A stretch of 64,000 bases of DNA, taken from NCBI GenBank assembly GCA_025677815.1, contig JAIXMP010000034.1:62001-126000 (forward strand), given 5' to 3'. The notes under the pieces were generated by a model. The model had not been told where the DNA came from. It saw only the letters and a program-made list of their open reading frames with translations, and did not search any database. This document shows positions 1,801 through 64,000 of the stretch, one piece after another. This stretch comes from Phascolomyces articulosus. Taxonomy: Eukaryota; Mucoromycota; Mucoromycetes; Mucorales; Lichtheimiaceae. The position numbers were made by a program, and so were the translations under genes. Positions within the stretch are counted from its first letter, which is position 1; each line of letters begins with the position of its first letter.

Positions 1801-2466
1801 AACACCCACACATACATAAAACACTACACAACTAGTATTATCTACTACATAAATAATAAATTTATATTTTGTAAAAAAAGTATTCATGCTTTTTCTCTCT
1901 CTTTTTTTCAGTGGTATAATAATTCTGTTATAATATACTCAATCAACTTTGTGTGTATGTGTATGTGTTCTTATATATACATGTTCTCGTTTTTTTTGTT
2001 GGATGAATGGTTAGATTTATCTATCCATATTATTAAAATCACTGGGTTTTTACGACTTAAGTTTGCCTTACAAAAAAGGAAATACTTTACTTGCGGTGCG
2101 AATCTGTTAAGTGACACGAAGCGAAACGGAGGGGATCATTTATTCGAGTGAGGCGAGTTATTTATTATAAAATAGAAACTTTTTTTTCATGTAAAACATT
2201 ACACAATGCTACTTCGGCTTAGCAATTAATCATTTCCCATCGCTCATTCTTTTTATCGTCCTTATTTTTCTCTTTATATTTTTATCCTCCATTATCAACA
2301 TCTTTTTCTTATTCTTCATCAAGCAACCTTTTTGTATATCGCGAAACAACATTGAATAAATAGAGAAAACAAGGTAATCAGCATCAAATTATTCTGTTAG
2401 GCAATATTCTTAATTTTTTTTCTCTCTAAAACATGAAAATTTTTAAAAAGAAATATACATTATATT
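1801..2466. other. 5' flank shared with HET copy B
   Basis: No gene. From about 2085 to the start codon at 2467 the sequence is recognisably similar, in inverted orientation, to about 49252-49615 upstream of HET gene B. Shared landmarks include TTGCGG...AATCTGT, GACACGAAG, and the ACATTACACAATGCTACTTC stretch. This is probably the promoter and 5' leader of the HET family. Confidence 0.6.
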
Positions 2467-4272
2467 ATGTACATTACCTATTGCCGTAACCAAAGATCAT
2501 TGGATCCAGTGGATACTACACAATATCGAGGTGATGCCAATGCAGGAAAATATCGACCCACGTACCTCATTCGTGTTTCAGATTGGAAGAAAGTCCCAGG
2601 CAAACAAGTAGAAACTGGTTATTGTGCTCTCTCCTACGTTTGGGAACAATCCGGAGATGTTGTACAAAAAGAAAACGGTGAATATGACTGCATCGACAGC
2701 GGTAGACATTGTATTGTTGAAGGATATGATATGGGCCACAAGAAATGAATTTTCACAAAACTCACGAAACGTTTACTCGGTAGCGAAAAAATAAGGACTC
2801 GGTTATAATGACATTTACAGAAGCAAAAGGAGAAAAAAAATACAAGGTCCAGTTTTCTCCATCCACCAGGAGCAAGACTACTATAAAATATGTGACGTAT
2901 GAAGAGCTTCTTCAACAAATCTGCAAAGATTTCGAAATCGAATATTCGTGGTACGATAAAATATGCATTGATCAATCGGACGATCAAATGAGACTGCAAG
3001 AAATCAAACAAATGCATAAGATCTACGGTAATGCGTGTTATACTGTGGCTATTGTACCTGAAGTCCATATTCATGATCCAAAAGATTTTGATACTCTCAT
3101 ACCAGTGAATATAGCCACAAAAGCAACCGCAAAAGCTTGGGGTGATATATTACTAAAATCACTTTGGTGGAAACGCAGTTGGATATTAGAAGAAACAATG
3201 TCATCAAAACGTATTTTAGTGATTGGGACAGACACTCATTTCTGGCAGCATAGTTTTCATACATGCGATATACCTACGACATATGATGAATTTTCATTAC
3301 GGTTGCTTGATTTTGCTAACCAACAACAAGGAGGAGGAAGTGTCAATCAAGCACTCAATCAAGCTCATTTTCGAACGAGTTCAAAGGAACACGACAAAAT
3401 TTTTTCTTTGGTCAATATTTTCCCTGATATGTTTAAAAATATGGAAATCAACTATAAAATCGATATTAAAACAACCCTCCACCACTTTTATCGGACCATT
3501 GCAACACATGACCTATCCATTCTTTGTTTTGGATCGAACCTTACTAACGATGGTGAGGAAATTCGTGTCAATACAATGAAGAATCATAGTCTACCTTCAT
3601 GGACTGGTGTTTCTGGGGAGCATCTCGATAAACCTGTTGCCACCACAACCACATGGCTTTCAACACCAGCATTCTATCTGTGATGATATGCTTCTTCACA
3701 TTTCAACCAAATATTACAAGACATTATCTGTTGTACCGTATGATTGTGGATGCTTCTCACCGTTATCTCACGATAAACATCAATGGGGCCAACAGATTGA
3801 TAAGTTTAAGAAGCGGCGGGAAGCGAAAGTTTGATCCCCTATAGTTGAAGAGGAGACTGCTTTAATAGATTGGGCAATAAATATGAGAAATGTTTTAGGC
3901 TGTTACGCTACTCATTATTATCAACCACAAGACTCTCCCGTCATGCAAGCAAGGTAACTCTCATTGACTGAAGATTGTGATGAATGCATCATTTTGCCTA
4001 TTTTACTCAAATCCTATGGCTTAGTTGTTAAGAAGGCAAAGGAATCACCATTATTAAGACACCCTGGTGTTCATGTACATGACTATTCCCTTCCTGTTAT
4101 CAAGAAATATGTGGATGCTGCAAACGGCACAAAAGAACGGTACAAGGCCATTGGTATTTATTTTCTTGGGAGTACGTTCAACAAGGATCTTGTTTCGGAT
4201 GATCCAGGTGAAATTTTAAGCTCGGTTTTTGGAGGTGTCTATAATGACGCAAAAGAGTTTATTATTCAATAG
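2467..4272 (+). pseudogene. HET-domain protein, copy A (disrupted)
   Basis: Same protein family as the intact gene at 47512-49251. HET-type motifs are visible: CALSYVWEQ near the start, then WYDKICIDQSDDQ, KIYGNACYTVAIV and WWKRSWILEE. Damage relative to copies B and C: a 51-nt extra block (2734-2784) with an in-frame TGA at 2746-2748, a 2-nt offset just after it, a +1 shift near 3659 (the CTTTCAACAC stretch), TGA at 3832-3834, and TAA at 3955-3957 where copy C has a Pro codon. The final reading frame still ends in KEFIIQ and a stop like the other copies. HET domains are linked in other fungi to heterokaryon incompatibility and programmed cell death; any function here is lost or truncated. 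Confidence 0.85.
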
Positions 4273-5075
4273 AATTTCATATATTATTTAAAAGCAGACA
4301 AATGTAAATATCTTAATAAACATATTATTACCTTCTGTTATACTATCAAAGAAGATAAAGAGATAAATGACAGTGAATAAGTGCAGATTAGATAATTAAA
4401 TAACAAGTAGCAAACACTTGATTTGTTTATAGGTTCGTGGATTGTCTGATTGGGTATATACAAGTAAAAGATTACGCTAATAGTATTTAATACCATATAC
4501 GCTGTTAATACATATAGTATTCTATTTTACATATTCTATTTTTACATTTTATCCTATCATCTCTTATTACATACAACATCATGTATCTAATATTTATATA
4601 TTTGAAAAGTTAACCAACAAATTATAAGAAGTTCTATTACAATCGAATTGAACAGTGCTCATGATTTTGAATATACATTTACTCCTCGTTCAGCAACTGT
4701 ATTGATCCTTCAAATTACTTAATGAACCTTTATATTCACTATTCTCAAATTCTCCTTTTCCTATTTTTTTTTTTATGAATATTTTTTTTTTTTTTTACAT
4801 CATTGAAATCAATTCTAAAGAATAAAAAAATTATCAGTTATCTTTTTTTTCTCTCTTCAAATCATATGTTATCAAACGTAACGCATAGGATTTATACATT
4901 CATCTTGAGTCATGAAATCAGAAATGAATAATGTTGAGTCGGAGCAAAAAAGTGAAAATAATGCAAAAAAAAAAAAAAAATGTGGTCAGAAAATTTTTTT
5001 GTCGGTACCAAAAAAAGCTTTTTTTTGGTAACTTTATTTTGATTTTTCTTTTGCTGTGAATAGCTTATACTTTTC
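4273..5075. other. HET copy A 3' flank, then intergenic
   Basis: From 4273 to about 4645 the sequence matches, in inverted orientation, the 3' flank of HET copy B (about 47125-47511) and part of that of copy C. Similarity stops near 4645. The rest, to 5075, is AT-rich with long A/T tracts and would contain the tRNase Z promoter; no clear TATA element was assigned. Confidence 0.55.
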
Positions 5076-8000: not shown

Positions 8001-8634
8001 CTTATGGTTTAACCATCGATCATCAAACGGGTTGGAAACTAGTGTATGTATATTATCTTTTCCCACATTCATTTGGAAAAAAAAAAACTGATTATCATCT
8101 TGGAGATAATGATATTTGTATTTATATATCTTCTCTTCACACGCTCATTATATATTATATTAAATAGATATTCTGGTGATACCCGTCCTTGCGATAATTT
8201 AGTAGAAGCAGGTCAAAACGCGACATTACTCATTCATGAAGCAACATTAGAAGATGGTATGAAAGCAGAAGCCATTGCCAAACGTCATTCTACCACAGAA
8301 GAAGCAGTTGAAGTGGGTCAAAAGTAAGTTCAAATTCTATTTTATGAAAACAAAAAAAAAAGAAAGATACTTACTCGAAAAAAAAATTCATGCATTATCC
8401 AGTATGAATGCAAAATATACATTATTAAATCATTTTAGTCAACGGTATCCCAAAGTACCCTCCTTATCATCAGAACAGAGTAATGTATGTTTCAGCTTTG
8501 ATTTGATGACGATTCCTATTAAACGGATACCAGTTTTACCCAAATATACGGAGGCGATTAGTTTATTATTTAAGGAGGAAGAAGAACAAGAACAAGAAGT
8601 TGAAGATGGAAAAAAAAATGTAATCCTTAGATAA
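5076..8634 (+). CDS. tRNase Z, long form (ELAC2/Trz1-like)
   Basis: Endonuclease that removes 3' trailers from pre-tRNAs in nucleus and mitochondria. Eleven exons: 5076-5503, 5642-6195, 6305-6393, 6489-6680, 6761-6905, 7004-7279, 7391-7587, 7675-7844, 7930-8043, 8168-8323, 8403-8634. All phases agree and give 850 aa, typical of the long family. The degenerate N-terminal half has FNCREGTQR and a long acidic linker. The C-terminal half carries [14 protein letters not shown], the metal-binding [10 protein letters not shown] motif, [16 protein letters not shown] and NHFSQRYPK. The first ATG precedes an Arg/Ser/Thr-rich, acid-free leader suited to mitochondrial import; a second in-frame ATG at 5199 (MKAYIQVVG) could give the nuclear form. 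The dual-start idea is inference; the family assignment is firm. Confidence 0.96.
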
Positions 8635-14850: not shown

Positions 14851-15479
14851 TATAATTTAAATGATCAGGCAATTATAAAAAAAAATAAAACAGTGCTTCG
14901 AAAGACTTATGAATTATTATCTATAATTTGACATGTGATTCTTTTTTTATAGTTTATATCATTCTCACGCTACTATTTTATTAAAACCTATTCTTTTTGT
15001 TTGAATAGAAAAAAAGGGTCCTTGCAATCAATAATAATAATAATAAACATTGAAAAAGTGACACAATAAAAAAGCCATATTCAATTTGTTGGGGGAGTTA
15101 TATATATACATACATATATACCCAATTGTTATTATGCAGCAGCTGCCTTTTTTCCTTATTGATCTAGATATGCAATCATTTAATTCAATTTATGTATTAT
15201 TTATATAACACCGAAATAGATCACCCATGGAATGACTGAAGTAAAATCTTACACAAAACAATAATAATATCAATAGAATTTCTTATGTGTCCACAGAAAT
15301 CATGTCAATAAAAAGAAAATGTTATAGATATATAAATATTGCATATTTTTTTTTAATTATTGGGATATATATAAATTGTCTATGCATCAAAATCTGTTTT
15401 TTTAAAAAAAGAAACAGTAGTTTAGTTAGTTACATTGTTATTTTAATAGTGAACAACATTAAAAAGAAATATATAGAAA
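14851..15479. repeat. ~640-bp direct repeat, copy 1 (duplicated Ugo1-like 3' end)
   Basis: Nearly identical to 22152-22794 apart from AT-microsatellite length changes and scattered substitutions. Copy 2 holds the last intron, the 23-nt terminal exon and the 3' flank of the Ugo1-like gene. Copy 1 therefore carries an orphan copy of that terminal exon on the minus strand, reading GKKAAAA then stop, where copy 2 reads GEKAAAA then stop. It has no upstream exon 4 and is probably non-functional. Confidence 0.88.
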
Positions 15480-18481: not shown

Positions 18482-18916
18482 CTACATACTTGATATGCCT
18501 ATTTTTTGTTTACAGTGCCGATACTACTCTTTCTTTTTGTTTTATTATTAATCTATTTATTACCAATGAATGCCATTTTTTTAGGCGACGCAACAAAATG
18601 GATTTAACACTAGTAACATTTGCGTAATTCTTAGACAAGCCGTAAAACCAGGAATACCTGGAAATTTGTTGCCATGGATTCCTTATCTTTTATATTTTCA
18701 TCGACTTCTGGATTAAAGTACAGTATCATAGGTTTTTTTTTTATTATTAATTTATTTTATTATCAATCAGTTTTATTTTTATCATGTAAAGCAACAAATT
18801 GGTTAACATTAGTTCGTCTATTTCCCTAACCCTTTACTTGCAATTTCGTTACTATGGGTACGTCGTCTTTTATACCTTTTCCAACTCAAAGTTTCGAATA
18901 TTACGAATCTTCCTGC
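18482..18916. other. Upstream region with diverged internal duplication
   Basis: Two similar stretches (about 18545-18630 and 18745-18815) both contain TTATTATTAAT...CAACAAA...GG.TTAACA. They appear to be old tandem copies. No gene was supported; the missing first exon of the neighbouring minus-strand gene could lie here. Confidence 0.35.
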
Positions 18917-19686
18917 TTATTACAGCTTTTGTTCCATGATTCTTCCTGCTGGGCTACCTTGTCCGCTCTGTTTTCATCGGCTCAAGGACTCGCTTATTAC
19001 AGCTTTTGTTCCATGATTCTTCCTGCTGGGCTACCTTGTCCGCTCTGTTTTCATCGGCTCAAGGACTCGCTTATTACAGCTTTTGTTCCATGATTCTTCC
19101 TGCTGGGCTATCTTGTCCGCTCTGTTTTCATCGGCTCAAGGACTCGCTTATTACAGCTTTTGTTCCATGATTCTTCCTGCTGGGCTACCTTGTCCGCTCT
19201 GTTTTCATCGGCTCAAGGACTCGCTTATTACAGCTTTTGTTTCATGGTTCTTCCTGCTGGGCTATCTTGTCCGCTCTGTTTTCATCGGCTCAAGGACTCG
19301 CTTATTACAGCTTTTGTTCCATGATTCTTCCTGCTGGGCTACCTTGTCCGCTCTGTTTTCATCGGCTCAAGGACTCGCTTATTACAGCTTTTGTTCCATG
19401 ATTCTTCCTGCTGGGCTATCTTGTCCGCTCTGTTTTCATCGGCTCAAGGACTCGCTTATTACAGCTTTTGTTCCATGATTCTTCCTGCTGGGCTACCTTG
19501 TCCGCTCTGTTTTCATCGGCTCAAGGACTCGCTTATTACAGCTTTTGTTTCATGGTTCTTCCTGCTGGGCTATCTTGTCCGCTCTGTTTTCATCGGCTCA
19601 AGGACTCGCTTATTACAGCTTTTGTTCCATGATTCTTCCTGCTGGGCTATCTTGTCCGCTCTATTTCATCGGCTCACAGTCTTGCC
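18917..19686 (+). repeat. 77-bp tandem repeat array, ten units
   Basis: Ten head-to-tail 77-bp units begin at 18917, 18994, 19071, 19148, 19225, 19302, 19379, 19456, 19533 and 19610. Each starts TTATTACAGCTTTTGTT; the last unit decays after CTATTTCATCGGCTCAC. Three sequence types can be told apart by CCATGATTC or TCATGGTTC, and by GGCTACC or GGCTATC. In order the units are A A B A C A B A C B', so units 3-6 and 7-10 form a 308-bp higher-order repeat. The array is richer in GC than the DNA around it. Confidence 0.95.
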
Positions 19687-21110: not shown

Positions 21111-21119
21111 AGGATAGAT

Positions 21120-22151: not shown

Positions 22152-22794
22152 TATAATTTAAATGATCAGGCAATTATAAAAATATAAAAAAACAGTGCTT
22201 CAAAAGACTTATGAATTTATTATATATAATTTGACATGTGATTCTTTTTTTATAGTTTATATCATTCTCACGCTACTATTTTATTAAAACTTATTCTTTT
22301 TGTTTGAATAGAAAAAGGGTCCTTGCAATCAATAATAATAATAATAAACATTGAAAAAGTGACACAATAAAAAAGCCATATTCAATTTGTTGGGGGAGTT
22401 ATATATATATATATATATACATATATACCCAATTGTTATTATGCAGCAGCTGCCTTTTCTCCTTATTGATCTAGATATGCAATCATTTAGTTCAATTTAT
22501 GTATTATTTATATAACACCGAAATAGATCACCCATGGAATGACTGAGGTAAAAATCTTAGACAAAACAAGAATAATATCTTATGTGTTCACAGAAATCAT
22601 GTCGATAAAAAGAAAAAAGTTATATATATGTATATATATATATATATATATATAATGTATATTTTTTTTAATTGTTGGGATATATATAAATTGTCTATGC
22701 ATCAAAATCTGTTTTTTTTTTTTTAAAAAAAAACAGTAGATTAGTTAGATTGTTATTCTATAGTTAATAAACATTAAAAAGAAGTATATAGAAA
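22152..22794. repeat. ~640-bp direct repeat, copy 2 (in place at Ugo1-like gene)
   Basis: Partner of 14851-15479. It covers most of the last intron, the 23-nt last exon (22461-22439) and about 290 bp of 3' flank of the Ugo1-like gene. Its right edge stops within a few bases of the intron's 5' splice site (22801). Confidence 0.88.
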
Positions 22795-34447: not shown

Positions 34448-36286
34448 TCATTTTACAATAAACTGTTCCAAAGAATGACATTGTATAATACTTGGATAAT
34501 AATAATCCATCTTCTTTTCAAGGAGCAAAGAAGAATGTTGTTTAGGATGATGATGAGCCATGAAAAATCGGGGTAATTCATTCATGGTCAAGAGTTGCAC
34601 GAGTCCAAGTGGATCATCAAAAGCGCCGAGATAATCCGTTAAAGAAACTCCTTCGAATACGATCGATTGCATGACATGATGTGGCATATGCAATCGAAAT
34701 GTTTTATGTAATAATAATAATACATTACAATCCAATAAAGCTAATTGATTGAATCTTGGACATTGTTTTGTTATTGCGTCTAAGGCTGAATCACATATCC
34801 AACTCTTTTTTAATTTCATATCGCGGAGTGGGTGATATTGTTCACTCGTAGGAGCACCGCATTCTAAACTAATTGATTCAGCATGGAATCGTCGGAGAAA
34901 AGGTAATTCTGTGAGGAGTCGATTGAGATTGAGTCGATGCGGAAATGGATGGTGATGGGGTGTATGACCATGAAGGTTTAATTCAATGATTTGTCGTTTT
35001 TCAAATTTTAAGTAGATATTAAATAAATCAATAGGTGCATTTGCAAGTGCTTCTTGAATTTCTGATAGATGTACTGTTTTCTTTGATTGTTGTTGTTGAT
35101 CATGGGGCATCTTTATCCCTGAGGTGTTGTAGTGTTGAGAAAGAATCTTGGAACGTAATTGAGAGATGAAACAAACTAACGCATTTTGTATTGATGTTAA
35201 ATGATTTAATAATAATCCATGTTTCGTCAGGACAACAATAGCATCGTCATCATCATCATCGGAAAAAACGTGGTTATTATTTTTCGGAGATTCCGTTGAA
35301 TAAACGTGGTGATAACCGAGTTTTAACCGATCCAAGTGAGGATATGTTGTTAATAAATAGTGTATCCATCCGCTCGTCATGATAGTATCATATCCATAAT
35401 GTTGGGCTGTTTGGATTGTTAATTGTTGTAAAAGCCCGCGCTTTTTTTCATTATCGTTATAATAATAGCTCGTGCCATTATAGTTTTGATGGAATGTTGA
35501 AAAGTTCATGTGTTCCTGTTGTTGTTGATACTGTTGAAACGACAAAAGATCGTAAACATTAGTTTGTTGTTGTTGCTGTTGTGGAAGATGGCACAAAAAT
35601 TCGACAGATAGAGTCAAGTTCATAAGTGTAGGACAAGCTTGATGAATGTTCTTCAAATGATCTATTCGTAAAGCTCTAAAGATTTTATCCAATGTTAAAG
35701 AACGTAATGTAGAAGGAAGACATGCAAGTAATGACGAAGATTGGTGTAGAGGGGCAGAGTGTTGATAATAAGAATATACGTTTTGATCGTAATATTCATC
35801 GTAATAATCTACATCGCTATAGTCATCAACGTTGGTGTTATTGGCTATTTCGGTCATAAGCAGGGTATTATTATTCTTTAATGGTTGATAACAAAGAGAT
35901 ACATGAGATAAAGAAGATAAAGAAGAAAAGGGTTGTTTTTGTCTTTGAATATGATCATCGATTAATTCAAGATGAAGGGTATTTAGATGAGGACATTGTT
36001 TTAAAAGGTATTGTTGTTGATCGGAAGAAAAAAGACCATCATGCCAATATATTTCTCGTATCCATTGTCCTGGGTTAATTACTTTATCTTGCTGATCAGG
36101 CACAAGTTGTAAAAAAGTATTCCATTGTTTATAGGTGGTGAAATGAATGGATTGATATAAATAACGTCGAAAAAAAGAATACCATTGTCGATTGACATGA
36201 CAACATTGACCATGATCTTTTAATAAAAGTTGATTGGCAATGACCGTAAGAATCTCTACGGGTATATAAGACAAAGGGTTTGTCAT
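34448..36286 (-). CDS. F-box / leucine-rich-repeat-type protein
   Basis: Intronless frame of 612 aa starting at the ATG complementary to 36284-36286. Residues 5-50 form an F-box: YIPVEILTVIANQL, then HGQCCHVNRQWYSFFRRYLY and QSIHF, typical of fungal adaptors for SCF ubiquitin ligases. The remainder has irregular leucine-rich segments (PHLNTLHLELIDD, LPSTLRSLTLDKIF, CPTLMNLTLSVEF, CPRFNQLALLDCNVLLLL) and Gln/Asn-rich inserts. It would bind Skp1 and an unknown target. It shares a 332-bp divergent promoter with PDA1. Confidence 0.88.
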   Translation of the reverse strand: MTNPLSYIPVEILTVIANQLLLKDHGQCCHVNRQWYSFFRRYLYQSIHFTTYKQWNTFLQLVPDQQDKVINPGQWIREIYWHDGLFSSDQQQYLLKQCPHLNTLHLELIDDHIQRQKQPFSSLSSLSHVSLCYQPLKNNNTLLMTEIANNTNVDDYSDVDYYDEYYDQNVYSYYQHSAPLHQSSSLLACLPSTLRSLTLDKIFRALRIDHLKNIHQACPTLMNLTLSVEFLCHLPQQQQQQTNVYDLLSFQQYQQQQEHMNFSTFHQNYNGTSYYYNDNEKKRGLLQQLTIQTAQHYGYDTIMTSGWIHYLLTTYPHLDRLKLGYHHVYSTESPKNNNHVFSDDDDDDAIVVLTKHGLLLNHLTSIQNALVCFISQLRSKILSQHYNTSGIKMPHDQQQQSKKTVHLSEIQEALANAPIDLFNIYLKFEKRQIIELNLHGHTPHHHPFPHRLNLNRLLTELPFLRRFHAESISLECGAPTSEQYHPLRDMKLKKSWICDSALDAITKQCPRFNQLALLDCNVLLLLHKTFRLHMPHHVMQSIVFEGVSLTDYLGAFDDPLGLVQLLTMNELPRFFMAHHHPKQHSSLLLEKKMDYYYPSIIQCHSLEQFIVK

Positions 36287-36618
36287 AATAGTAATAATAA
36301 TAATAAAGGTAATTTACAAAAAAAAAAAAGAGAAAAGAAGAAAGAGAAATAACAAATGGTAGATTTGATATTTGATTATATTTATAATGGATTTAATTCT
36401 ATTTTTTTTTATTGTACAACTCGGCTTACATTGAAAATTTTAGCAAGTTACCCTTTCTCCCTTTATTTCGATGAATTGCATGATTTTCATTCAGAAATAT
36501 ATATTTTTTTTTTGCTTCTCAGATTTCATGCCTTTCGCCCTTTCTTTCCTCCCATAAAAAAAAACCACTTAATTTTTTTTCCCTTATCGTGATTATTATA
36601 AGACGTGATTGTGTTAAA
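36287..36618. promoter_or_regulatory. Bidirectional promoter between F-box gene and PDA1
   Basis: Both start codons face outward from this 332-bp spacer. It contains A/T tracts and pyrimidine-rich stretches on both strands but no unambiguous TATA element. Confidence 0.5.
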
Positions 36619-45030: not shown

Positions 45031-46532
45031 TGTAACCCCCCAGAAAGAACCGCAGTTATTACCATTATTACTACGAAACAACTCTATATATAAATACTGT
45101 TACTGCGACAATATCGGATTATCTTACCTTTTGGTATCTTCCAATTAACAAGAGATACATACAAACCGCAGCAACATATTTATAAATATAATTATCACTT
45201 ATTCAACACATTATATTATTATTGGATATTCATTTATTACCACAGTATCTCGTAGCAACCGCAGTATCTTCACATGTTGTTACTTAGGATAGAAATATTT
45301 AATTATTGGAAAACATATAAATACCCCACAATTTTGTAACTGAAATAAAATCAATCAATTATACTTCTCTTTATCATATACATAAATTTTAAGAGTATTG
45401 ATTCACTCAAGACCGAACTGGCTTGTTTTAATTTTACTGTAGCTTAAAGAAAGCTTAACATTTCAATATAGGACAGACGTAACATTGTCGTAACTAAAAA
45501 TAAGGGTTACTACCATTTCCTTTTTTAATTTATTTTTGTAACACCTTATCGCTGCTATCGTATTTGCATTTTATTATGCCACGTATTTATCATCCATCAT
45601 CTTATTAATTATTCGAACACGTATTCAATTGACAGTCATGAACACGTATCGCATCCTCCATTATTCCACGTATACATATTATTGTCATTAGTTTTATTAT
45701 ATAATTTATTATTATCACAAGTAGTTAGAAAACATATAAATACCCCTGACCATTAAAACAATAAACGACATCTTTCACGTTACTCTTTATTTTATCACTA
45801 CTCTTCTGTTATCTCCATTTCTATTGGCTTGGTATTGATCCGCCATAATTATCACGACAACATTCCTGATCCTTATTCTATTATCATTACCAGTCGGAAG
45901 TAACATACCTGACTTTGACTATTATCATTGAATTCAAGACATTATATCAAGGATTATATCATATAGTAACATACTACACAAGTTACTCTTTTGTAATAAC
46001 AAGAACTGCTAATCCAAGCTTCACTTGTTATACATTTTTTATACTTCAAACGATAATTCAATTATATATCATATATTATTCGTATTATATATTTTACTGT
46101 GGCCTAAAGAATCCACGCTAATATAGCTGTATAATCACATATAAACAGATACTTGCTTAAAACATTAGTATTGATATCTGTTGCTTTAATCGGTGTAATA
46201 TACGTTAATATTACTGGTGCTCACTAAATATCACGAACTGATATATAAAAACTTTAGTTGCTATAAGAATTGTAATTATAAGAAGCAAATCTTATTAGTA
46301 ACATCGTGTTGCTCACCAAAAGCCCTGTTACTCAATATCATTAAATATATGTAACTGATTAACACATTTTGGTGTTTACACTCAATTATCATATCATAAA
46401 TTATTATCTATCTTACAAGCAACACATATTGTGTTCACACTTTCATCACCACTAAATTACCACCAAACCAAATATCAGGGCAACAACGTAACTCGTATCT
46501 CGTAAATACCAGGTTATTTTAATAATATAGAC
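45031..46532. other. Segment beside HET B absent from HET C; repeated TATA modules
   Basis: In HET copy C the dispersed motif is followed almost directly by CGAACAATG; in copy B about 1.5 kb intervenes. That DNA contains TATA-like modules near 45090 (CTATATATAAATACTG), 45310 and 45733 (the latter two share AAAACATATAAATACCCC). No coding sequence. It may be nested LTR-type remnants. Confidence 0.4.
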
Positions 46533-47154
46533 TAGGTCGAACAATGTATACATACTACATAAACAGCAGTAGTAGTAATTATGTCTTATTTTTCTTCCTT
46601 CGTACAGTTATGTGCGACACAATTCAAACATTACTCTTTCAATTGTCTGCCACGTATCCGCTACTCTATAAACTTACTAGTCGCACGGTAATTATGCAGC
46701 ACACGCAGAAAATGGAAAAAAAACTTCATATTTTAAAGAGTAGAGTTACCTTAGCTGTGATTCTAAAATAAGAACATTTATCTTGGAAGAAACCACGCCA
46801 TCATACCAATATTCATATCATAAAAAAGGATGCTAATGTATTCTTTTTATTTGTTCACAGTATACGTTTATGCATGCTAATAATATTAATAGTTCATGAA
46901 GATGTTTGTACCTTTTTACTGTGTCATCTTCCTGATGTTGGTCCTCTTTTTACCAATACTTTATTTTAATTTAGCATAATACTATAGAGTTTTAAAGGAT
47001 TTGCTATATTTATATATATAACGTTACTAATAATTCATCTCCTGTCATTCTCTGATGCTATTTATTATTACGTATAAATCATTTTTCTTTGCCATTATTT
47101 ATCCTATTGCTTTTATGATAGTAATAAAGTTTCTTATAATTTATTGGCTAACTT

Positions 47155-47190
<36 letters not shown>

Positions 47191-47511
47191 GACATACTGT
47201 TGTACATAATACGAGATGATAGGGTAAAATGTAAAAATAGAACATGTAAAATAGAATATTATATGTATTAACAGAGTATGTCATTAAATACTATTAGCGT
47301 AACCTTTTACTTGTATATACTCAGTCAGACAATCCACGAATCTATAAACAAATCAAGTGTTTGCTACTTGTTACTTAATTATCTAATCTGCACTTATTCA
47401 CTTATTCACTGTCATTATCCCTTTGTATTCTTTGATAGTATAGCAGAAGGTAATAATATGTTTATTAAGATATTTACATTTGTTTGCTTTTAAATAAAAA
47501 AGATAAATACT
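46533..47511. repeat. 3' flank of HET copy B shared with copy C
   Basis: Strongly similar in the same orientation to 60413-61637 plus 62843-62986 once a ~400-bp and a ~1.2-kb insertion in the C copy are removed. The part nearest the gene (about 47125-47511) is also shared with copy A. Includes an (AT)n tract at 47160-47187. Confidence 0.8.
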
Positions 47512-49251
47512 CTATTGAATAATAAACTCTTTTGCTTCACTATGGGCATCATCTCCAAAAATCGAGTTTAAAATTTCATCTGGATCATCCGAAATAAGAT
47601 CCTTGTAGAACGTATTCCCAAGATAATAAATACCGATGGCCTTGCACCGTTCTTTTGTGCCGTTTGCAGCATCCTCATATTTCTTGATAACAGGGAGGAA
47701 ATAGTCATGTGAATAACCGCCAAGAAACTTTAATGATGGTAATTCCTCTATCCTACCGATAAGTAAACTATAGGATTTGAGCAAAATAGGCAAAATGATG
47801 CATTCGTCACAATCTTCAGTCAATGAGAGTGGTCTTGCTTTAATGACGGGAGCATCTTGTTGATAATAATGAGTGGCGTGACAGGTTAAAATTCTTTCCA
47901 TTTTTATTGCCCAATCTAATAAAGTATCCTCGTCAAATGTATCGCATAAACCTTTCGCTTCTTGCAGCTTCACAAACTCATCAAACTGTTGATTCCATTG
48001 ATATTTATCGTGAGATAACGGCGAGAAGATTCCAAAATCATACGGTACAACCGATAGTGTCTTGCAATATTTGGTTGATATATGAAGAAGCATATCATCA
48101 CAGATAGAATGCTGGGATTGGAGCCATGTGGCTGTGATGACAACAGGTTTATCGAGATGCAAGCCAGAAACACCAGTCCATGACGGTAGATTATGATTCT
48201 TCATTGTATTGACAACAAGTTCCTTACCATTGACAGAGAGATTTGAACTAAAACAAAGAATGGATAGGTCATGTGTTGCAATGGTCCGATAAAAGTGATT
48301 GAAGGTTGTTTTAATATCGGTTTCATAGTTGATTCTCATATTTTTAAATATATCAGGGAAAATATTGGCCAAAGAAAAAATTTTGTCATGTTCCTTTGAA
48401 CTCGTTCGAAAATGGGCCTGGTTGAGTGCTTGATTGATACTTCCTCCTCCTTGTTGTTGGTTAGCAAAATCAAGCATCCAAATTGAAAATGGATTGTATG
48501 CTGTGGGTATATCGCACGTATGAAAACTATGCTGCCAGAAATGAGTATCTGTCCCAATCACTAATATACGTTTTGATAACATTGTTTCTTCTAATGTCCA
48601 ACTGCGTTTCCACCAAAGTGATTTTTGTGTCATATCAGACCAAGCTTTTGTGCTTGCTTCTATGTCCTCATACAAAGGGGCAATAATATCAAAATCTTTT
48701 GGATCATAAACGTGGACTTCAGGTACAACGGCCACAGTATAACACGCATTGCCGTAGATCTTATGCATTTGTTTGATTTCTCGTAGTTTGATTTCATCAT
48801 CGGATTGATTAATGCATATTTTATCGTACCACAAATATTCGATTTCGAAATCTTTGCATATTTGTCGGAGAAGTTCTTCGTATGTCACATGTTTTATAGT
48901 AGCCATGCTCCTGGTGAGTGGTATAAACTGGATTTCGTACTTTTCTTCTTCTGTAAGTGTCATGGTGGTAAGGTCCCCTTTTTCCATATCATATCCTTCA
49001 ACAATACAATGTCTACCCTTGTCGATGCAGTCATATTCACCGTTTTCTTTTTGTACAGCATCTCCGGATTGTTCCCAAACATAGGACAGAGCACAATAAC
49101 CTGTTTTTACTTGTTTGCCTGGGACTTTCTTCCAATCTGAAACACGAATGAGGTATGTGGGTCGATATTCTCCTGCAGTTGCATCACGACGATATTGTGT
49201 AGTATCCACTGGATCCAACGATCTTTGGTTGCGGCAATAGGTAATGTACAT
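47512..49251 (-). CDS. HET-domain protein, copy B (intact)
   Basis: Intronless frame of 579 aa from the ATG at 49251. HET-domain blocks in order: CALSYVWEQ (residues 53-61), LWYDKICINQSDDEIKLREI (140-159), KIYGNACYTVAVV (164-176) and WWKRSWTLEE (213-222). These match the three conserved blocks of fungal heterokaryon-incompatibility domains (ALSYxWG, DxICINQ...Q...M..IY, RxW..QE). The remaining ~350 residues are an unfamiliar family-specific region (e.g. ICDDMLLHISTKYCKTLSVV, ECIILPILLKSY). No transmembrane segment or NACHT/repeat domain is visible. HET domains trigger cell death after non-self fusion in ascomycetes; that role here is inference. The only full-length copy of the three. Confidence 0.9.
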   Translation of the reverse strand: MYITYCRNQRSLDPVDTTQYRRDATAGEYRPTYLIRVSDWKKVPGKQVKTGYCALSYVWEQSGDAVQKENGEYDCIDKGRHCIVEGYDMEKGDLTTMTLTEEEKYEIQFIPLTRSMATIKHVTYEELLRQICKDFEIEYLWYDKICINQSDDEIKLREIKQMHKIYGNACYTVAVVPEVHVYDPKDFDIIAPLYEDIEASTKAWSDMTQKSLWWKRSWTLEETMLSKRILVIGTDTHFWQHSFHTCDIPTAYNPFSIWMLDFANQQQGGGSINQALNQAHFRTSSKEHDKIFSLANIFPDIFKNMRINYETDIKTTFNHFYRTIATHDLSILCFSSNLSVNGKELVVNTMKNHNLPSWTGVSGLHLDKPVVITATWLQSQHSICDDMLLHISTKYCKTLSVVPYDFGIFSPLSHDKYQWNQQFDEFVKLQEAKGLCDTFDEDTLLDWAIKMERILTCHATHYYQQDAPVIKARPLSLTEDCDECIILPILLKSYSLLIGRIEELPSLKFLGGYSHDYFLPVIKKYEDAANGTKERCKAIGIYYLGNTFYKDLISDDPDEILNSIFGDDAHSEAKEFIIQ

Positions 49252-49615
49252 ATTACTTTTTGAAAATTTTCATGTTTTATGATAGAGGAAAAAAAGTTAA
49301 GAATATTGCCTAAGAGAATAATTTGGTAATGATTACCTTGTTTTCGCTGTTTATTCAATGCTGTTTCGCGATATACAAAAAGTTTGCTTGATGGAGAATA
49401 AGAAAAAGATGTTGATAATGGAGGACAAAAATATAAAGAGAAAAGAAAGGACAATAAAAAGAATGAGTGATGGAAATAATTAATTGCTAAGCCGAAGTAG
49501 CATTGTGTAATGTTTTACATGAAAAAAAATATATATATAATAAATGAAGCCGTCCGCCTCACTTCGTGTCATTTCACAGATTTGCGCCGCAAGGGGGGTA
49601 TCGCCCTTTGATCTC
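49252..49615 (-). promoter_or_regulatory. Shared 5' region of HET copy B
   Basis: Inverted homologue of about 2085-2466 upstream of copy A. Conservation of ~360 bp of non-coding sequence between two distant copies suggests that the promoter moved with the gene or is under constraint. Confidence 0.55.
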
Positions 49616-49890
49616 TGTTGCAATCATGTTCAGAGTAGTATAAGAAGTGTTGTATAAAGCCATATATTTATTTTGTGTGTTCAAAGGTTAATTTTTTGTT
49701 TTGTATGTTCAAGTTTCATTTTGAGTTGTAAACCCAAAGCTTTATATGTTATTATTGCTGGAAAAAATGATGATAACTCGTTTCGTAAGTTGTCATCATT
49801 TCTTTTTCCTTTTCTTATGATGATCTAAGCCTAAACCTTATGTTAGTTTCATAAAATAATTAAAAAAATACGCGCAAATTATTATTTACA

Positions 49891-50072
49891 ATGACTATTA
49901 GAGCAGCTGCAGCGGCACTTGTAATGATCCTTGTAAGTTAAATTTAATGATATGTTTATAAGTGTATCGTTGCAGTGGTTCTTTTAAACCCCTTTTTTAT
50001 TTTTACCAGCTTGTAGGTTTTATCATTAAAAGTTGTAAATCTAACAGGAATGGTAGAAGGGTATTAAAATAA
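49891..50072 (+). CDS. Spliced 34-aa membrane microprotein candidate
   Basis: Exon 1 (49891-49932) ends at a perfect GTAAGT; exon 2 (50010-50072) begins after TTTTACCAG. They join in phase 0 to read MTIRAAAAALVMILLVGFII followed by KSCKSNRNGRRVLK and stop. The first 20 residues are one hydrophobic helix; the rest is strongly basic, the pattern of a single-pass tail. A 77-nt intron of normal size and sequence is the main argument that the frame is real. Too short for family assignment, and it could still be chance. Confidence 0.5.
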
Positions 50073-50535
50073 AATTATCTCTGTTTATTAACACCAATAT
50101 CACTACTAAAAAACACTATAATCAAGGCAATCTCTTTATTTTTGTTGTTATAGTTAATAATCGTTTCGAAGAGTCTGTTTTCTTTTTTTCTTATATGTCA
50201 CATATCTTCATTTATAAAAATTATTTGTTGCATAATTTAATTGAACAAACACTGGAGGATGGAAGTATATCTTTTTTAGAGGGATTGAATTTTTTTTCTA
50301 GTCTTTCCTTTACTTAAAACCATTGTGAAAAAATCATTTTAAGCAAGCTTGTAGTGATACTGGTATTTTAAATCCACTAATCTAAAAGGTTTTTTTACAA
50401 GCAACCACTGCTGGTGCTCTTTGACTCAAATATGAACCTTATAATATAAAAAAAACATTTATTGGCGGAGTATTTCCTTTTTTGTAAGAGGGCAAACATA
50501 AGTCGTAAATACCATAGATAAATCTAACAATTCTA
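50073..50535. other. Spacer with dispersed motif copy 2
   Basis: AT-rich; holds the second copy of the dispersed motif (about 50440-50500) immediately outside the left end of the TIR element. No gene. Confidence 0.4.
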
Positions 50536-54024: not shown

Positions 54025-54080
54025 GATCAAGATTTGAGGGAGTTTTCATTTTAAAAATAATATCTCTATAATAAAAGGAA

Positions 54081-55130: not shown

Positions 55131-55133
55131 AGA

Positions 55134-57222: not shown

Positions 57223-60172
57223 TCATTGCAAATAAACGCATAATGCATGAGGGTGCTGGTGAGTGTTAGCTTGATTCAGGCAATCACTCCATCCTTGCTG
57301 GCCAGTAATTAAACCGCGTCTTCGAGCAGCAGCTTGAAAAGATGGTAAAACTTCTTCATTTACTTCACCTCTGTTTATTGTACACATATCGACAAAAGAT
57401 TTACCACCTGGTACATGGCAGAGCAAAAGCCGAAGATGGTACTTTTCAACCTCTCGAGGGGACACAGCAAACATTCTACCAATGGTACCACCATGACCTC
57501 GTTCTCGAACTTTCCAACTACGTGTACGCTTAACAAATACATACTCTTCAGGGAAATTGATGTAAAGGGTATTTTGATGAGCAGTATTATCTGGGTGTTA
57601 TCTGTTATATTCAAACCATGCTGTTAATGTAGTTTCATGAGCACGGCCTTGAATCACATCTGTGGGATTTTCTCCCTCATGAAAATACACCAATTGTTCA
57701 TCCTGAAGATGGATTGCCAACCGTTCATGTGCAGGAAATTCGCGATGTAAGGAGAACGAAAATAAACGCCAATATCCCTCAGAAGCAGAAACATAGCGAG
57801 CATCAAGGAAGGTGCTGATTTCGTCATATGTCTGTACTTCGTCATCATCAGGGTTCGCGGCAGGCTGTCGATTTTGTACTGCTCTTGCTGATGCTCGATC
57901 ATGGCCTTTGTAGACATATTTATAAACGTATTTGATTGAATGGATGGAGGCGCAGATTTCAACATTAATAAGAGCATCATATTTTGTACAAAGATAAATA
58001 TTGTGTGGGACAACCCATTCGTTATGAATTCTACAGCCTGCTTTCGTTATATAGTCTCCGTTATTTCGACGTCGATAAATTGGATAAGCATTTTCGTTCA
58101 TTTCTATTTCTTGTCTGAGTTGTTTGGAATAACCTTTGGTGCATCTATTATCTTTCATATATGGTGAACGTGGATTTAAGTGACCACAGGGACCGTGGAT
58201 CATATGTTGTTGAACAGTATTACGTGCATCAGAATAATCTTCTGCATTGGGTAATTCAGCAGAAACAGTATTGTCACAATCAGTGGAAGTTACAGGTTTA
58301 TCTTCATTGGCAAGAATAAGCAAAATGTATGCATATGGGAGCCCGCGCTTCTGAAATTCCACCATATGAACATGGGCAAATACCCGGCCTAAAACCATAT
58401 CCTTTATAAGGTCATTCATTAATTGCTTGAGCTTTAGTCTAAAAACACATGTGCTAATGTCTGGACGGTCAGGTGCATGTTGGCCTGGTAAAAGGGATCG
58501 TTGGATTTCTGGCCAGTTTGGATTGCATGCGAAGGTTATAAAAAGGTCGGGTTTGCCAAAACGGCGCACAATACTCATTGCATCTTGATACAATTGTTGC
58601 ATATGTCGAGGAGAGCCAATAAAAGATGATGGCAAAATAACACGTCTTCCAAGAGCTGCCATATTATTATCACCAACATCCATAGCATCAGCTACACTAC
58701 GATACAAATCGGATCGTATACTTTCTTGATTATGGCGGATATAACCTAAACGGTTTGCTTCCAATTTGGCGTACATATCAACAATATATTGTTGAAACAA
58801 TTTTCCAAAGCAATGAAGATCATTTGTATTATTGTTATTATGAACACGGATCATGAGACGATATTTATAAAAGTCCATTGGGGTGATGTTACGATTATTT
58901 GCTCTTGTATTGATGGTCCATCCTTCATCTCCTATTTATCATTTTATTTATTCTATTAATAATACAATATCTCAATCGTCGCCTTTAGATAAATTAACTA
59001 AAAACCTGAACACACCTCGAGGAAAAATAAGAACATATTGAATTGGATCATAAAAACGATGCACCTCACTGATCCGTTCTAACTGATTGGATCTGGTTCT
59101 CAATACAATATCTCGATTTCCAATATTTTCATCATCATGATTACCCACAATAATAATTCCAACTTCCCCAGCAGTAGGTGCATTGTAACGTCGACGATCA
59201 GGGGTATTTTCGGATCTAATAATCATCCTGACATTATCGACGCCATGTTGATGTGCAATTTGTGCCATATTTTGGAAAGATCGAACGAATGGATTTATAT
59301 CATGAATAAGTGCTTGCGATGATTGGAGAATATTATTATCAAGTTGTACATTTGAAACAACTTGTCGATTTGCTGTTTCAGTTGCTGGATCGTGTATATA
59401 AATTTGGGCAAATGCAGCTCTATTATCATCAGCAGGTAATTAAGAACCAATGTGATAGTAAAGATTTCCATGAATACGAAAATTATATGCCCCGCCATTC
59501 GAATTTGCAACAGTCTGATCAATGTTGACACCAAGAGAAGTGAAACTTAATGAGCTGTTGTAAGCACGAATGTATTTACGAAAATGTTGGGAAGCTGGGT
59601 CAGTACTGCGTAATTGTTGAGAAATTGCGGGTGGTGTTGGATTTAATGGAGGAAGTTCGACTGCTCTTTCCTGACAGCAAAGGTTGAAAGAAGGACTCCT
59701 GATAGAACTTTCAGAGATACGTTCTTGGATAAAGAGTTGAGCATGTCAGCTATTACACTCAATATCCATAGAATCAAGAGAGTCGCGTGGTGGAGTGTTA
59801 TTACTTGAAACGCGGGCGATGCTATGATGCTGAACCACAATCATATTTATAATAATAATTAATACTCAAACTCAAATAATAATGTATAGATAAGTTCCCA
59901 ATAAGATATCAAACTAAAATATTGAGCTTACATTTTGCTGTTGGATGTTATTGGGACGGGGACGATAATGGGGCAAGATCGATGAGTATTACGTAAATGA
60001 CCTTCTTGACCACAGCATGCGCAAACACAAACAGGAGGAGTTGCTCCGAGATTAGGTTCCTCATTGTTGATATTTGAAGGATTGTTGGGGCAAGAACTGT
60101 GAGTACTGCGTGAATGACCTTGGGCGCAGCTTGCATAGACAGGAACAGGTACAGAAATATGAGAGTCATCAT
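57223..60172 (-). pseudogene. Helitron Rep/helicase protein, truncated and mutated
   Basis: Rolling-circle transposon protein read on the minus strand. Upstream zinc-knuckle-like repeats (CCGQEGHLRNTHRSCP) lie near 60100-59950. Then come ELPPLNP, FTSLGVNIDQTVANSNGGAY, FRIHGNLYYHIGS, TAA (59440-59442) and LPADD. An intron (59015-58932) restores FPRGDEGWTINT. The 58878-57601 frame holds the Rep domain: PDLFITFACNPNWPEI, VEFQKRGLPYAYIL, PHNIYLCTKYDALINVEICA and KYVYKYVYKG. A TAA at 57598-57600 is followed in frame by INFPEEYVFV and LLCHVPGGKSFVDM, after which homology stops at 57223. The Pif1-type helicase is missing. The HUH motif is PYAY instead of PHAH. Confidence 0.9.
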
Positions 60173-60412
60173 AATACGTTCCTCATTCTGATTCTGTTAA
60201 CGCGTTGCTAATCTGTTCGGATTGAAAGACAACCGCGATGAGTAGTGCGTCGATGGCCAGGTAAACCGCAAGTGTTGCAAATGGGAGTAGAGTTTTAATA
60301 GAGAGTAAACTTATTTTTTTTTTTATAAGTATAAAAACCATAAAAACCTCTGTTATAAAAAAAAACTTTTATTATCGGAGCTATTTCCTTTTTTGGATTT
60401 TAGCAAATATAA
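60173..60412. other. Spacer with dispersed motif copy 3
   Basis: Lies between the Helitron 5' end and the shared HET C flank. Third copy of the ~60-bp motif at about 60345-60410. Confidence 0.45.
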
Positions 60413-60986
60413 CTCGAACAATGTATATTGCATAAACAGCGGTATTGATTGTCTCTTATTCTTCTTCCTTCTTACAGGTATGCGCGACACGATTCTTTCA
60501 ATTGCCTGCCACGTATCGCTATTCTATAAGCTTACTAGTCTCACGGAAATTATGCAGCACATGCAGAAAAAGAAAAAGAAACTTCATATTTTAAAAAGTT
60601 GAGTCAACTTAGCCATGATTCTAAAATAAGAACAATCGTCTTTTTTTTTTTTTGGAAGAAAGGACAGCATTATACCAATATTCATATCTTAAAAAAGGAT
60701 CCTAATGTATTCTTATTGTCTGTTCACAGTATACGATTATGCGTGTTAATAGTAATATTAATAGTAAGTGAAGATGCCCGTGCCTTTACTGTGTCATCCT
60801 CCTGATGATGGTCTTCTTTTTACCAATACTTTATTTTAATATAGCATAATACTATAGAGTTTTAAAGGAATCGCTATGTTTTTATATACACTAACAATTC
60901 GCCTCCTGTCTTTCTCTGATGTTATTTTATTATTATTATCATTATGTACGTATAAATCATTTTTCTTTGCCATTATTTATCCTATT

Positions 60987-61392
60987 TGGGCTTCGGCACC
61001 TTGCATTTTGGTGTTCGCGCCCCACCTTCCCACCGCAGAATTTGGAGGTTCGACTCCCGCACCGAGCAGGTCAAGAGTTTTGATGCCGCTTCCTTGTTGA
61101 TTGTCTCTTGAGTGATACTGTCCTTTTTCTGCGCTGACTCCACTTGATCCCCTATCAAGTTTCTCTTTTCTCCATTACTACTCCTATGGGTGCCAAAAGG
61201 GCGTTAATTTGAAATATAAATCATACCAGCAAATGTCTAGCTTAGTATTATTCATTAATTCATTCATCTTGTATAGCATGCTTTCTCTTATACCATCATA
61301 AATCTAAGTACCGCAAGTAACCGGCCACTTTGCCTATAGGACACAGGCCACTTAGTGCTACATTATAAAAAATGGTTGATTTTCTTTATGTG
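60987..61392 (+). mobile_element. SINE-like insertion with tRNA-type B box
   Basis: About 405 bp present here but absent from the homologous HET B flank. TCCTATT flanks it on both sides (60980-60986 and 61393-61399), as a target duplication. The 5' part is GC-rich and contains GGTTCGACTCCC (61047-61058), a perfect RNA polymerase III B box, preceded by a loosely A-box-like TGGGCTTCGGCACC. This is the layout of a tRNA-derived SINE. It does not fold convincingly into a functional tRNA. Confidence 0.68.
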
Positions 61393-61639
61393 TCCTATTG
61401 CTTTTATGACAGTAATAAAACTTATAATTCGTTGGCTAACTTTTTCAAGTATATATATATATATATTAGATACATGATGTTGTACTTAATAAGAGATGAT
61501 AAGATAAAATGTAAAGGTAGAATATTATATGTATTAACAGCATATATAGCATTATATACTATCAGCGTAACCTTTTACTTGTATATACTCAATCAGACAA
61601 TCCACCAATCTATAAACAAATCAAGTGTTTACTATTTGT

Positions 61640-62842
61640 CCCGACTGGATTCTCTAGACTTTTATCAGCACGCCTTTATTAACAGTTCATTCGTCCTAAG
61701 CTTGAATATGGACTTGCTATTACTTGGTTCACAAAAAAACAAATTAAACTCATACGTAGAAGATGCACAAAACCATTGCCTCCGACTCATTTTTGGTGCA
61801 CATAAAACATTCTCAACAACAGCTATACGTCATATCACACATATACCAACAATGGCTGAACGAATCTCCATCCTTCAAACAAAACTATTATCTCGTGCCT
61901 ATTACCTACCAAACAGCATCTTGCTTTATCAGCTTAGGCCAAAGCCAGTCTTCTCAATAAATAGTCAATGGAACACCCTACATCAATCTAATCTCTGGCA
62001 ACGTCTTCCTCTATCAAGACAGGACGTTGGTCCTCGTACTCTCAAACAAGAAATCAACAACTTCCGAACAGATACTTTTAAAAAATCGCTATCACAACCA
62101 AATAAAAATAGATTTCGGCTTGTCATCCATATATAACTATTGGCTCAATACTTTGGCTTCCAATGTCACCCAAGGACCGTAGCCGCGTAGTTCGTTGGCG
62201 TATCGGTTTCCTACCTGGCAAACCTGTTCAATGTTGGTGTCAACGGGATGGCGCGCTTACAACCATCTCCCATCTTATGGAATGCTTTTGTGTGCACCCA
62301 CTTCTGGATGTACCAATCACGATGACGATAGATCCAATATCCTATATCCTGAATAAATTTCCAAAAAATCCACCACAACAACAAAATCAAAAAGAATACC
62401 GGTCACGAATATGGTCACTTATTTGTTCACTCCTCTTTGACATTGATAACTGCTGCCATCCCCAAGTTTTTCTGCCACCAAGGATCCGGACCCAGATCGC
62501 CAGTTAATTATATGGATCAACACTGTAGAAAAAAAACATTTCACTACGTATAACAACAGCATCCACTAGACAACAGCAGCACCGGCAACAGTAATGCTCA
62601 ACCATATCTGGAAGCAGGATAGGCCTTTACTTTCATCATTTGATCCCCGACCTCTTCTAATATAAACTAAAATAAAAAAAAACTCTACGCCCCCCCTTTG
62701 CCTTTACATTTTTCCTTATTGTCTTTAAGGTTTTTCATATCATCACTCTGCCAACAGGATCGAACTAGAGCGGATATGTCCTATTAAGATGCAGCGTTTA
62801 CTTAGTCATTTCTTTTACTTTTCTTAAATAAAAAAATTTAAT
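61640..62842 (+). mobile_element. 5'-truncated LINE insertion
   Basis: About 1.2 kb inserted into the HET C 3' flank (absent from B). Coding blocks in shifted frames: TGFSRLLSARLY, stop (61680-61682), QFIRPKLEYGLAITWFTKKQ, then DAQNHCLRLIFGAHKTFSTT and IRHITHIPTMAERISILQTK, typical of the region after the reverse transcriptase in LINEs. After a stop at 62134-62136, another frame gives a zinc-knuckle-like CWCQRDG...HLMEC block and YILNKFPKNPP. The element ends with T-rich UTR and an A-rich tail (CTTAAATAAAAAAATTTAAT). The flanking ends share an imperfect CTA(T/C)TT. Inactive. Confidence 0.8.
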
Positions 62843-62983
62843 CTACTTCTTGTTACTTGATTATCTAATTTGCACTTATGCACTGTCATTATCCCTTTGT
62901 ATTCTTTGATAGTATAGCAGAAGGTAATAATGTGTTTATTAAGATATTTACATTTGTTTGCTTTTAAATAAAAAAAAAAAACT

Positions 62984-64000
62984 TTATTGAATAATAAACT
63001 CTTTTGCTTCATTATGAACATCTCCAAAAATCGAGCTTAAAATTTCATCTGGATCATCAGAAATAAATTCTTTGTGGAACGTACCCCCAAGATAATAAAT
63101 ACCAATAGCTTTGTACCGTTCTTTTGTGCCGTTTGCAGCATCCACATATTTCTTGATAACAGGGAGGAAATAGTCATGTGAATAACCAGTAGGATGTTTT
63201 AATGATGGTGATTTCTCTATCCTACCAACAAGTAAACTATAGCATTTGAGCAAAATAGGCAAAATGATGCATTCATCACAATTTTCAGTCAATGAGAGTG
63301 GTCTTGCTTGCATGGCGGGAGCATCTTGTGGTTTATAATAATGAGTGGCGAAATGGCCTGAAATATTTCTCATTTTTATTGCCCAATCTATTAAAGCAGT
63401 ATCCTCTTCAACTGTAATGGATAGACCTTTCGCTTCCCACCGCTCCACAAAATTATCAACCTGTTGGTTCCATTGAAGTTTATCGTGAGATAACGGTGAG
63501 AAGCATCCACAATCATATGGTACAACCGATAGTGTCTTGTAATATTTGGTTGAAATATGAAGAAGCATATCATCACAGAGAGAATGCTGGGGTTGAAGCC
63601 ATGTCGTTGTGGTGGTAACACGCTTATAGTGATGCAAGCCAGAAACACCAGTCCATGACGGCAGATTATGATTCTTCATTGTATTGACACTAATTTCCCA
63701 ACCATTGTAAAAGAGGTTTGAACCAAAACAAAGAATCGATAGGTCATGCGTTGCAATGGTCCGATAAAAACGATTCAAGGTTGTTTTAATATCGATTTTA
63801 TAGTTGATTTCCATACTTTTAAATAAATCAGGAAAAATGTTGGCCAAAGAAAAAATTTTGTCATGTTCCTTTGAACTCGTTCGAAATTGGGCCTGGCGGA
63901 GTGCTTGATTGACACTTCCTCCTCCTTGTTGTTGGTTAGCAAAATCAAGCATCCATATTGAAAAATCATTGTATGATGTAGGTATGTCACACGTATGAAA
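62984..64000 (-). CDS. HET-domain protein, copy C (partial, runs off window)
   Basis: The frame is open from the window end (64000) to the stop at 62984-62986, covering the family region after the HET blocks: from FHTCDIPTSYNDFSIWMLDF, through ICDD-equivalent LCDDMLLHISTKYYKTLSVV, to GDVHNEAKEFIIQ. No stops or frameshifts within 338 codons. The HET domain itself should lie beyond the window. It is more similar to copies A and B than to anything else in the window and shares the CAA CCC CAG junction that is shifted in A. Confidence 0.88.
   Translation of the reverse strand, partial: FHTCDIPTSYNDFSIWMLDFANQQQGGGSVNQALRQAQFRTSSKEHDKIFSLANIFPDLFKSMEINYKIDIKTTLNRFYRTIATHDLSILCFGSNLFYNGWEISVNTMKNHNLPSWTGVSGLHHYKRVTTTTTWLQPQHSLCDDMLLHISTKYYKTLSVVPYDCGCFSPLSHDKLQWNQQVDNFVERWEAKGLSITVEEDTALIDWAIKMRNISGHFATHYYKPQDAPAMQARPLSLTENCDECIILPILLKCYSLLVGRIEKSPSLKHPTGYSHDYFLPVIKKYVDAANGTKERYKAIGIYYLGGTFHKEFISDDPDEILSSIFGDVHNEAKEFIIQ

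Follow-up and report, generated by a model that had tools for sequence, protein, structure and literature searches.

The stretch of DNA analysed here (the window) comprises 64,000 nucleotides, positions 62001-126000 of contig C39 in the 47.4 Mb assembly of the mould Phascolomyces articulosus (Lichtheimiaceae, Mucorales), which represents one strain. It harbours three copies, A, B and C, of a gene family with the HET domain (PF06985), which is linked to cell death, together with DNA that the copies share outside the gene. Copy B forms a single open frame, 585 codons long from stop to stop (47512-49269), and the HET profile search that the original prediction had set as a check returned a match of 52.5 bits (E=8.7e-14; Pfam curated cut-off 22.5). 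At E <= 1, HET was the only Pfam match in copy B, with neither NACHT nor WD40, so that this protein is not a NOD-like receptor (NLR) of the NWD/HNWD type. In copy A, the largest open piece (299 aa) gave 42 bits, again above the Pfam cut-off of 22.5, and the frame is broken, the match being split over pieces in two frames with one TGA and one TAA in the last piece. No HET match was obtained by Pfam in the part of copy C inside the window because its N-terminal half lies past the window end; the full frame of copy C (603 aa, C39:124987-126795) is open. Single open frames, in line with the absence of introns noted earlier, were found in intact copies but not in copy A.

Self-comparison of the window aligned A with B over 2090-2734 / 49593-48984 (86%) and 2828-4644 / 48952-47117 (85%), A with C over 3255-4410 / 64000-62846 (87%), and B with C over 46537-47108 / 60414-60986 (80%), 47095-47371 / 61386-61639 (81%) and 47364-48525 / 62846-64000 (88%), with every pairwise match at E <= 7e-73. 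Together with the HET match in copy B, these values bear out the earlier assignment of A, B and C to one HET family, as well as the claim that similarity reaches beyond the reading frames, the flanks being homologous both up- and downstream. The features are given below with position, strand and basis; the papers cited here and later by PMC number are represented by excerpts.

2045..2086, plus strand: terminal direct repeat (DR) of copy A, 5' side (self-comparison, unit comparison)
2090..2453, plus strand: shared upstream DNA of copy A, module U3 (self-comparison)
2466..4271, plus strand: HET gene relic of copy A, split over two frames, with stop codons in its last piece (genome protein search; open piece of 299 aa with HET at 42 bits)
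4284..4644, plus strand: shared downstream DNA of copy A, module D1 and start of D2 (self-comparison)
46494..47511, minus strand: downstream module D of copy B, without an open reading frame (ORF) common to 7 compared copies (genome matches)
47512..49251, minus strand: intact single-exon HET gene of copy B, 579 aa from ATG (ORF, Pfam)
48586..49098, minus strand: HET domain of copy B, residues 52-222, TIR-like predicted fold (Pfam, model, structural comparison)
48586..48600, minus strand: W218-x-x-x-E222 of copy B, like WxxxE of TIR NADases (alignment; motif from PMC11374754)
48625..48681, minus strand: hypervariable stretch 191-209 of copy B, with one face of helix 198-210 (selection tests, model)
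48172..48186, minus strand: PSWTG (356-360) of copy B, resembling PSWSW of TOL/PIN-C-type HET proteins (alignment; PMC10890737)
48115..48237, minus strand: hypervariable sites of copy B within 339-379 (selection tests)
47881..47973, minus strand: hypervariable sites of copy B within 427-457 (selection tests)
47719..47760, minus strand: hypervariable hairpin tip 498-511 of copy B (selection tests, model)
49252..49896, minus strand: shared upstream DNA of copy B, modules U3 and U2 (genome matches)
49897..50421, no strand: insert in the upstream flank of copy B, dispersed repeat (genome matches)
50422..50520, minus strand: DR of copy B and adjoining sequence, 5' side (unit comparison)
60358..60416, minus strand: DR-like sequence of copy C, 3' side (self-comparison, unit comparison)
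60414..62981, minus strand: downstream module D of copy C, split by two inserts (self-comparison)
60987..61385, no strand: insert 1 in the downstream module of copy C (self-comparison)
61640..62845, no strand: insert 2 in the downstream module of copy C, dispersed repeat (genome matches)
62984..64000, minus strand: 3' part of the 603-aa open HET-family frame of copy C, running to C39:126795 (ORF, genome protein search)

The second of the two inserts that break the 3' flank of copy C has long copies on contigs C21 and C45, and many other matches cover about its last 150 bp only, a pattern that resembles 5'-truncated retroelements. The ends of the insert in the upstream flank of copy B appear imperfectly inverted by eye; a scan of the three inserts yielded no target-site or inverted-end candidates at the chosen thresholds. 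Neither Rfam families at gathering score nor tRNA genes were found in the window.

The family extends far beyond this locus. Searches of the genome with the copy B protein gave 83 stretches corresponding to 66 loci on 18 contigs, with 17 loci on C17 and 10 on C39, so that the 'three-copy' family of the original prediction has at least 66 members. Of the 66, 24 are free of stops and near full length (query start at most 7, end at least 569), and many copies are broken or partial. The HET profile gave 150 matches among the scored candidates, and the union of family and profile matches amounts to at least 188 HET-type loci, counted in six frames with matches less than 900 bp apart merged and introns ignored. 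Both locus counts are lower bounds, since 75 of 369 candidates were scored for the protein query and 150 of 245 for the profile. Outside the window, contig C67 carries 31 of the 150 profile matches, spread over more than 1.5 Mb, and likewise 31 of the 188 loci. For Podospora anserina, 132 annotated HET genes are given (PMC10890737), a number not counted like the six-frame matches here.

With copy B as reference, the repeated unit opens with a DR of about 65 bp, followed by the upstream modules U2 and U3, the HET gene and downstream module D (about 1 kb), and closes with another DR. This direct repeat stands at both ends of several copies, contrary to the former impression that terminal repeats were absent; the downstream DR of copy B itself is degenerate. 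The span from DR to DR is 3.1-3.3 kb in three copies (L002, L008, L010), and two adjacent gene pairs are spaced 3.2 and 3.7 kb. All 23 genome matches of a 975-bp D query adjoin a family copy, and a short AT repeat inside D matches elsewhere too. U2 and part of U3 are present on C2 (L021, C2:1172300-1174300) and C45 (L022, C45:1697400-1699400) with a GAAGCG-rich end and no HET match listed nearby; these upstream-module copies are probably a dispersed non-coding repeat. Likewise, DR-like sequence occurs on C34, C16, C82 and C13:917k with no HET match listed nearby. Thus, the upstream part of the unit looks derived from dispersed repeats.

Several junctions bear directly on how the family spread. 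The D module of one unit continues through the DR into the U modules of the next in L009 (C39), a D fragment runs through the DR into the next unit's U in L023 (C57), and L006 contains two head-to-tail copies with an incomplete D between them. Three further copies, L016 (C1), L024 (C13) and L001 (C15), start with 28-38 bp of the D end followed by the upstream part, with no further D before. Copy A (C39), L008 (C15) and L010 (C39) have 0.8-1.5 kb more in common beyond the DR. A second subtype, with four copies on C17 and one at C39:424774, has separate flanks, which its members share with one another over stretches of about 0.1 to 3.4 kb. Retroposition of the gene, suspected since copies of this subtype have sharp edges some 137 bp ahead of the frame and 44 bp behind it, was dropped in view of these shared flanks. 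Module D was considered as the seat of a partner gene and rejected: besides the lack of a common ORF in the 7 compared copies, 251 of the 311 indels counted between pairs of copies break the frame, their length not being a multiple of three. Its divergence is like that of non-coding DNA (mean Jukes-Cantor distance 0.129; 21 pairs, 7 copies). With regard to a possible subtelomeric location, the 240-base stretches examined at 10 contig ends contained no TTAGGG array.

Because of the head-to-tail junctions and the variable extents of the duplicated stretches, tandem and segmental duplication accounts better for the spread of the family than a mobile element does. Multiplication of a unit of about 3.1-3.7 kb would have placed copies head to tail, with unequal crossing-over between the direct repeats as the simplest mechanism; segmental duplication would have moved pieces of it to other contigs, and transposon-like inserts would have pushed copies apart. 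That the unit is instead mobile, bounded by terminal direct repeats and carrying the HET gene as cargo, would fit the short repeats at both ends, the copies on several contigs with differing outer flanks and the DR-like matches remote from listed HET genes. Nevertheless, fixed ends and an own transposition gene are lacking: extents vary, three copies have DNA in common beyond the DR, neighbours stand head to tail, the unit of copy B has no frame of at least 150 aa besides the HET gene, and D lacks a common ORF. A mobile element is therefore considered improbable.

The family also shows signs of exchange among its copies. Trees from thirds of the gene disagree, and 46.1% of informative-site pairs at unselected codons are incompatible, versus 34.5% (standard deviation 2.6) in 100 simulations without exchange, none of which reached as high a value. 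The pairwise homoplasy index (PHI) permutation gave 0/1000 with selected codons, 400/1000 without them and 417/1000 for third positions alone, and is thus positive only with selected codons. Hence, exchange tracts are not localised, and exchange among family copies is probable only.

The family shows a strong signal of diversifying selection. It was assessed mainly on 10 of 17 intact family frames and later on 16 of 17, the frame left out (C17:998209-1000101) being 50% identical; gapped codon columns were removed in parsimony counts, the mixture test and the larger sets, and treated as missing data in the first likelihood site run. Ratios of nonsynonymous to synonymous rates (dN/dS) were 0.38-0.65 by counting in 45 of 45 pairs of the ten intact close copies, about 0.5 overall and 0.85 by likelihood. 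Locally, however, the corresponding pN/pS of the ten copies reaches 3.7 at codons 194-213 and 2.2 at 451-467, and residue 452 reads E L T K A I R R I E across them. A codon mixture with omega above 1 exceeded one with omega up to 1 by a doubled log-likelihood difference (2dlnL) of 144.5, the maximum in 20 null simulations being 10.8. The same test gave 191.3 with a star tree, and 7.7, 73.9 and 51.6 with separate trees for three gene segments, so that little of the signal comes from the first third. For 11, 14 and 16 copies, 2dlnL was 166.7, 153.8 and 124.0, with 43, 35 and 28 of the 48 ten-copy sites recurring. Depending on the data set, strong diversifying selection thus acts on about 33-50 codons. 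In the predicted model, the selected sites of helix 198-210 (198, 201, 202, 205, 208, 209) occupy a single face, and further sites fall in loops, around the hairpin tip 499-511 and at 546-550.

Related proteins from other genera allowed both variable and conserved positions to be followed further. The best 120 of 134 relatives were used; 99 of these (480 aa or more) entered the tree, 74 alignment A1, and 49 plus the window piece alignment A2. At the selected positions, 14 Circinella and environmental relatives feature a mean entropy of 2.40, compared to 0.92 at the rest and 1.84 at sites of intermediate support. This supports, but does not prove, a shared surface formed by the variable sites in the relatives, as exposed sites vary in any family. 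Such sites may recognise changing non-self or partner molecules. Other positions are tightly conserved. W218 is present in 73 of 73 and E222 in 72 of 73 letters (74 rows, one gap) inside helix 217-225, forming a WxxxE whose superposition on the TIR motif is unreadable from range-only alignments. Of the motif PSWTG at 356-360, W and G occur in 74/74, P in 73/74, S in 69/74 and T in 72/74 sequences; it is likened to PSWSW by motif name alone, without profile or alignment to TOL/PIN-C. The best structural matches of the predicted N-terminal part are TIR-domain NADases (AbTir, SARM1, SPARTA TIR-APAZ). A sequence-based search for solved-structure relatives gave none for P0001 at E <= 1 and one unrelated weak match for the profile. 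No structural match was found for the C-terminal fold, which shows neither a new fold nor the lack of a lectin fold as in the het-B type (HET + HAD + lectin). As judged from the model, the conserved N-terminal domain may be a TIR-like cell-death or NAD-consuming module.

Explanations without a recognition role have to be weighed against these results. Mere drift in copy number, i.e., a decaying duplicated family under relaxed constraint, would agree with the many broken or partial copies (24 of 66 loci approach full length and are free of stops) and with the overall dN/dS, but relaxation cannot yield omega well over 1 at fixed sites, and other positions, including WxxxE and PSWTG, are tightly kept across genera, which renders drift on its own unlikely. 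Selfish killer or meiotic-driver families, such as the wtf genes of fission yeast, diversify by conflict rather than defence; copies that are clustered, flanked by repeats and fast-evolving, many of them broken and with signs of exchange among them, would suit such a family, yet no second gene was seen in the unit, and this origin appears even less probable than drift. At 45 selected codons, parsimony counted 3.1 changes at the first and 2.9 at the second position versus 0.31 and 0.22 at 489 others, and 1.5 versus 0.68 at the third position. Selection is the better reading than local hypermutation because the latter should raise all three codon positions alike, although a mild local rise in mutation rate may exist beside it. 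Targeted hypermutation, e.g., of the diversity-generating-retroelement type, is most improbable as the maker of the variable codons: some variable sites are NNC or NNT with a fixed third base and selected codons have somewhat more A at their second position (205/450 versus 1864/4890 letters), but the sites spread from about codon 14 to 550 rather than over a single short region and third positions are raised only about twofold.

The favoured explanation, held with reasonable though by no means high confidence, is a species-specific many-copy HET-domain family shaped by head-to-tail multiplication of the unit, segmental duplication, transposon-like inserts and diversifying selection, with a putative TIR-like N-terminal module and a presumed recognition role of the variable sites. 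The original prediction of a mobile or recombining non-self-recognition family is thus retained as to recombination and, by way of diversifying selection, a presumed recognition role, but not as to mobility. As somatic fusion is said not to give rise to heterokaryons in Mucorales (PMC4133162), a role in defence against parasites seems more likely than classical heterokaryon incompatibility. More tentatively, and at present rather doubtful, the large TIR-like HET repertoire might act as innate-immune receptors against viruses, bacteria or other fungi instead of kin, whereby the repeat-bounded array would supply copies, exchange would reshuffle them and selection would diversify the recognition surface. 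The drivers of HET gene diversification and roles beyond incompatibility have been called open (PMC10197012). For this question, the family offers paralogues with named diversifying codons, a conserved TIR-like motif and relatives in another genus varying at the same sites, by which the defence hypothesis becomes directly testable in this order; a few dozen protein positions are kept changing by selection, as expected of a recognition system.

Besides the HET units, the window contains a minisatellite at 18915-19676 (77-bp unit repeated 9.9 times, with 97% matches) within a 2-kb stretch of AT skew -0.31, and a direct duplication of about 630 bp with 88% identity (14851-15479 and 22152-22794). 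A 445-aa frame on the minus strand (57598-58935; Helitron_like_N, E=4.3e-58) may belong to a Helitron located between copies B and C, and a 621-aa frame on the minus strand (34448-36313) has F-box-like and LRR matches below the Pfam cut-offs.

No genome paper on Phascolomyces articulosus was found in the open-access literature, and site selection in Mucorales HET genes appeared in no title or abstract start found there, which is weak evidence of novelty. The view that HET domains are little characterised in early-diverging fungi is fair, yet a HET expansion with tandem duplication has been published for Lichtheimia corymbifera of the same fungal family (PMC4133162). Both expansions are lineage-specific and involve PF06985; in L. 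corymbifera, HET is among the dominant domains in tandem duplications, and 52 of 56 members of one expanded group bear it. The numbers are counted differently, with at least 188 six-frame HET-type loci here and annotated genes there, and unit boundaries, exchange and site-level selection are treated only here as far as the excerpts of that account extend. Multiple HET genes are also mentioned for Apophysomyces (PMC5604411). TOL and PIN-C of Neurospora crassa likewise have a HET domain without an NLR part, and their PSWSW motif is resembled by PSWTG here (PMC10890737), and positive selection was reported for pin-c (PMC2988816) as diversifying selection was found here. In contrast, HET lies at 335-533 in PIN-C (PMC2988816) and N-terminally in the present proteins, which form a many-copy family without a known partner gene. 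The NWD/HNWD genes of Podospora anserina (het-d, het-e) resemble the family in exchange between paralogues, which is probable here, and in a few positions under positive selection, but change affects the WD40 repeats there (PMC1805685) and the HET region and C-terminal part here. TIR-domain NADases are the best structural matches of the predicted N-terminal part and have a WxxxE motif (PMC11374754) that W218-x-x-x-E222 resembles, whereas the family lacks a sequence-level match to them and any NAD activity is putative. Measured against these systems, the family is of a known kind, and what is noteworthy is the strong, repeatable diversification signal on possibly TIR-like proteins in a mould.
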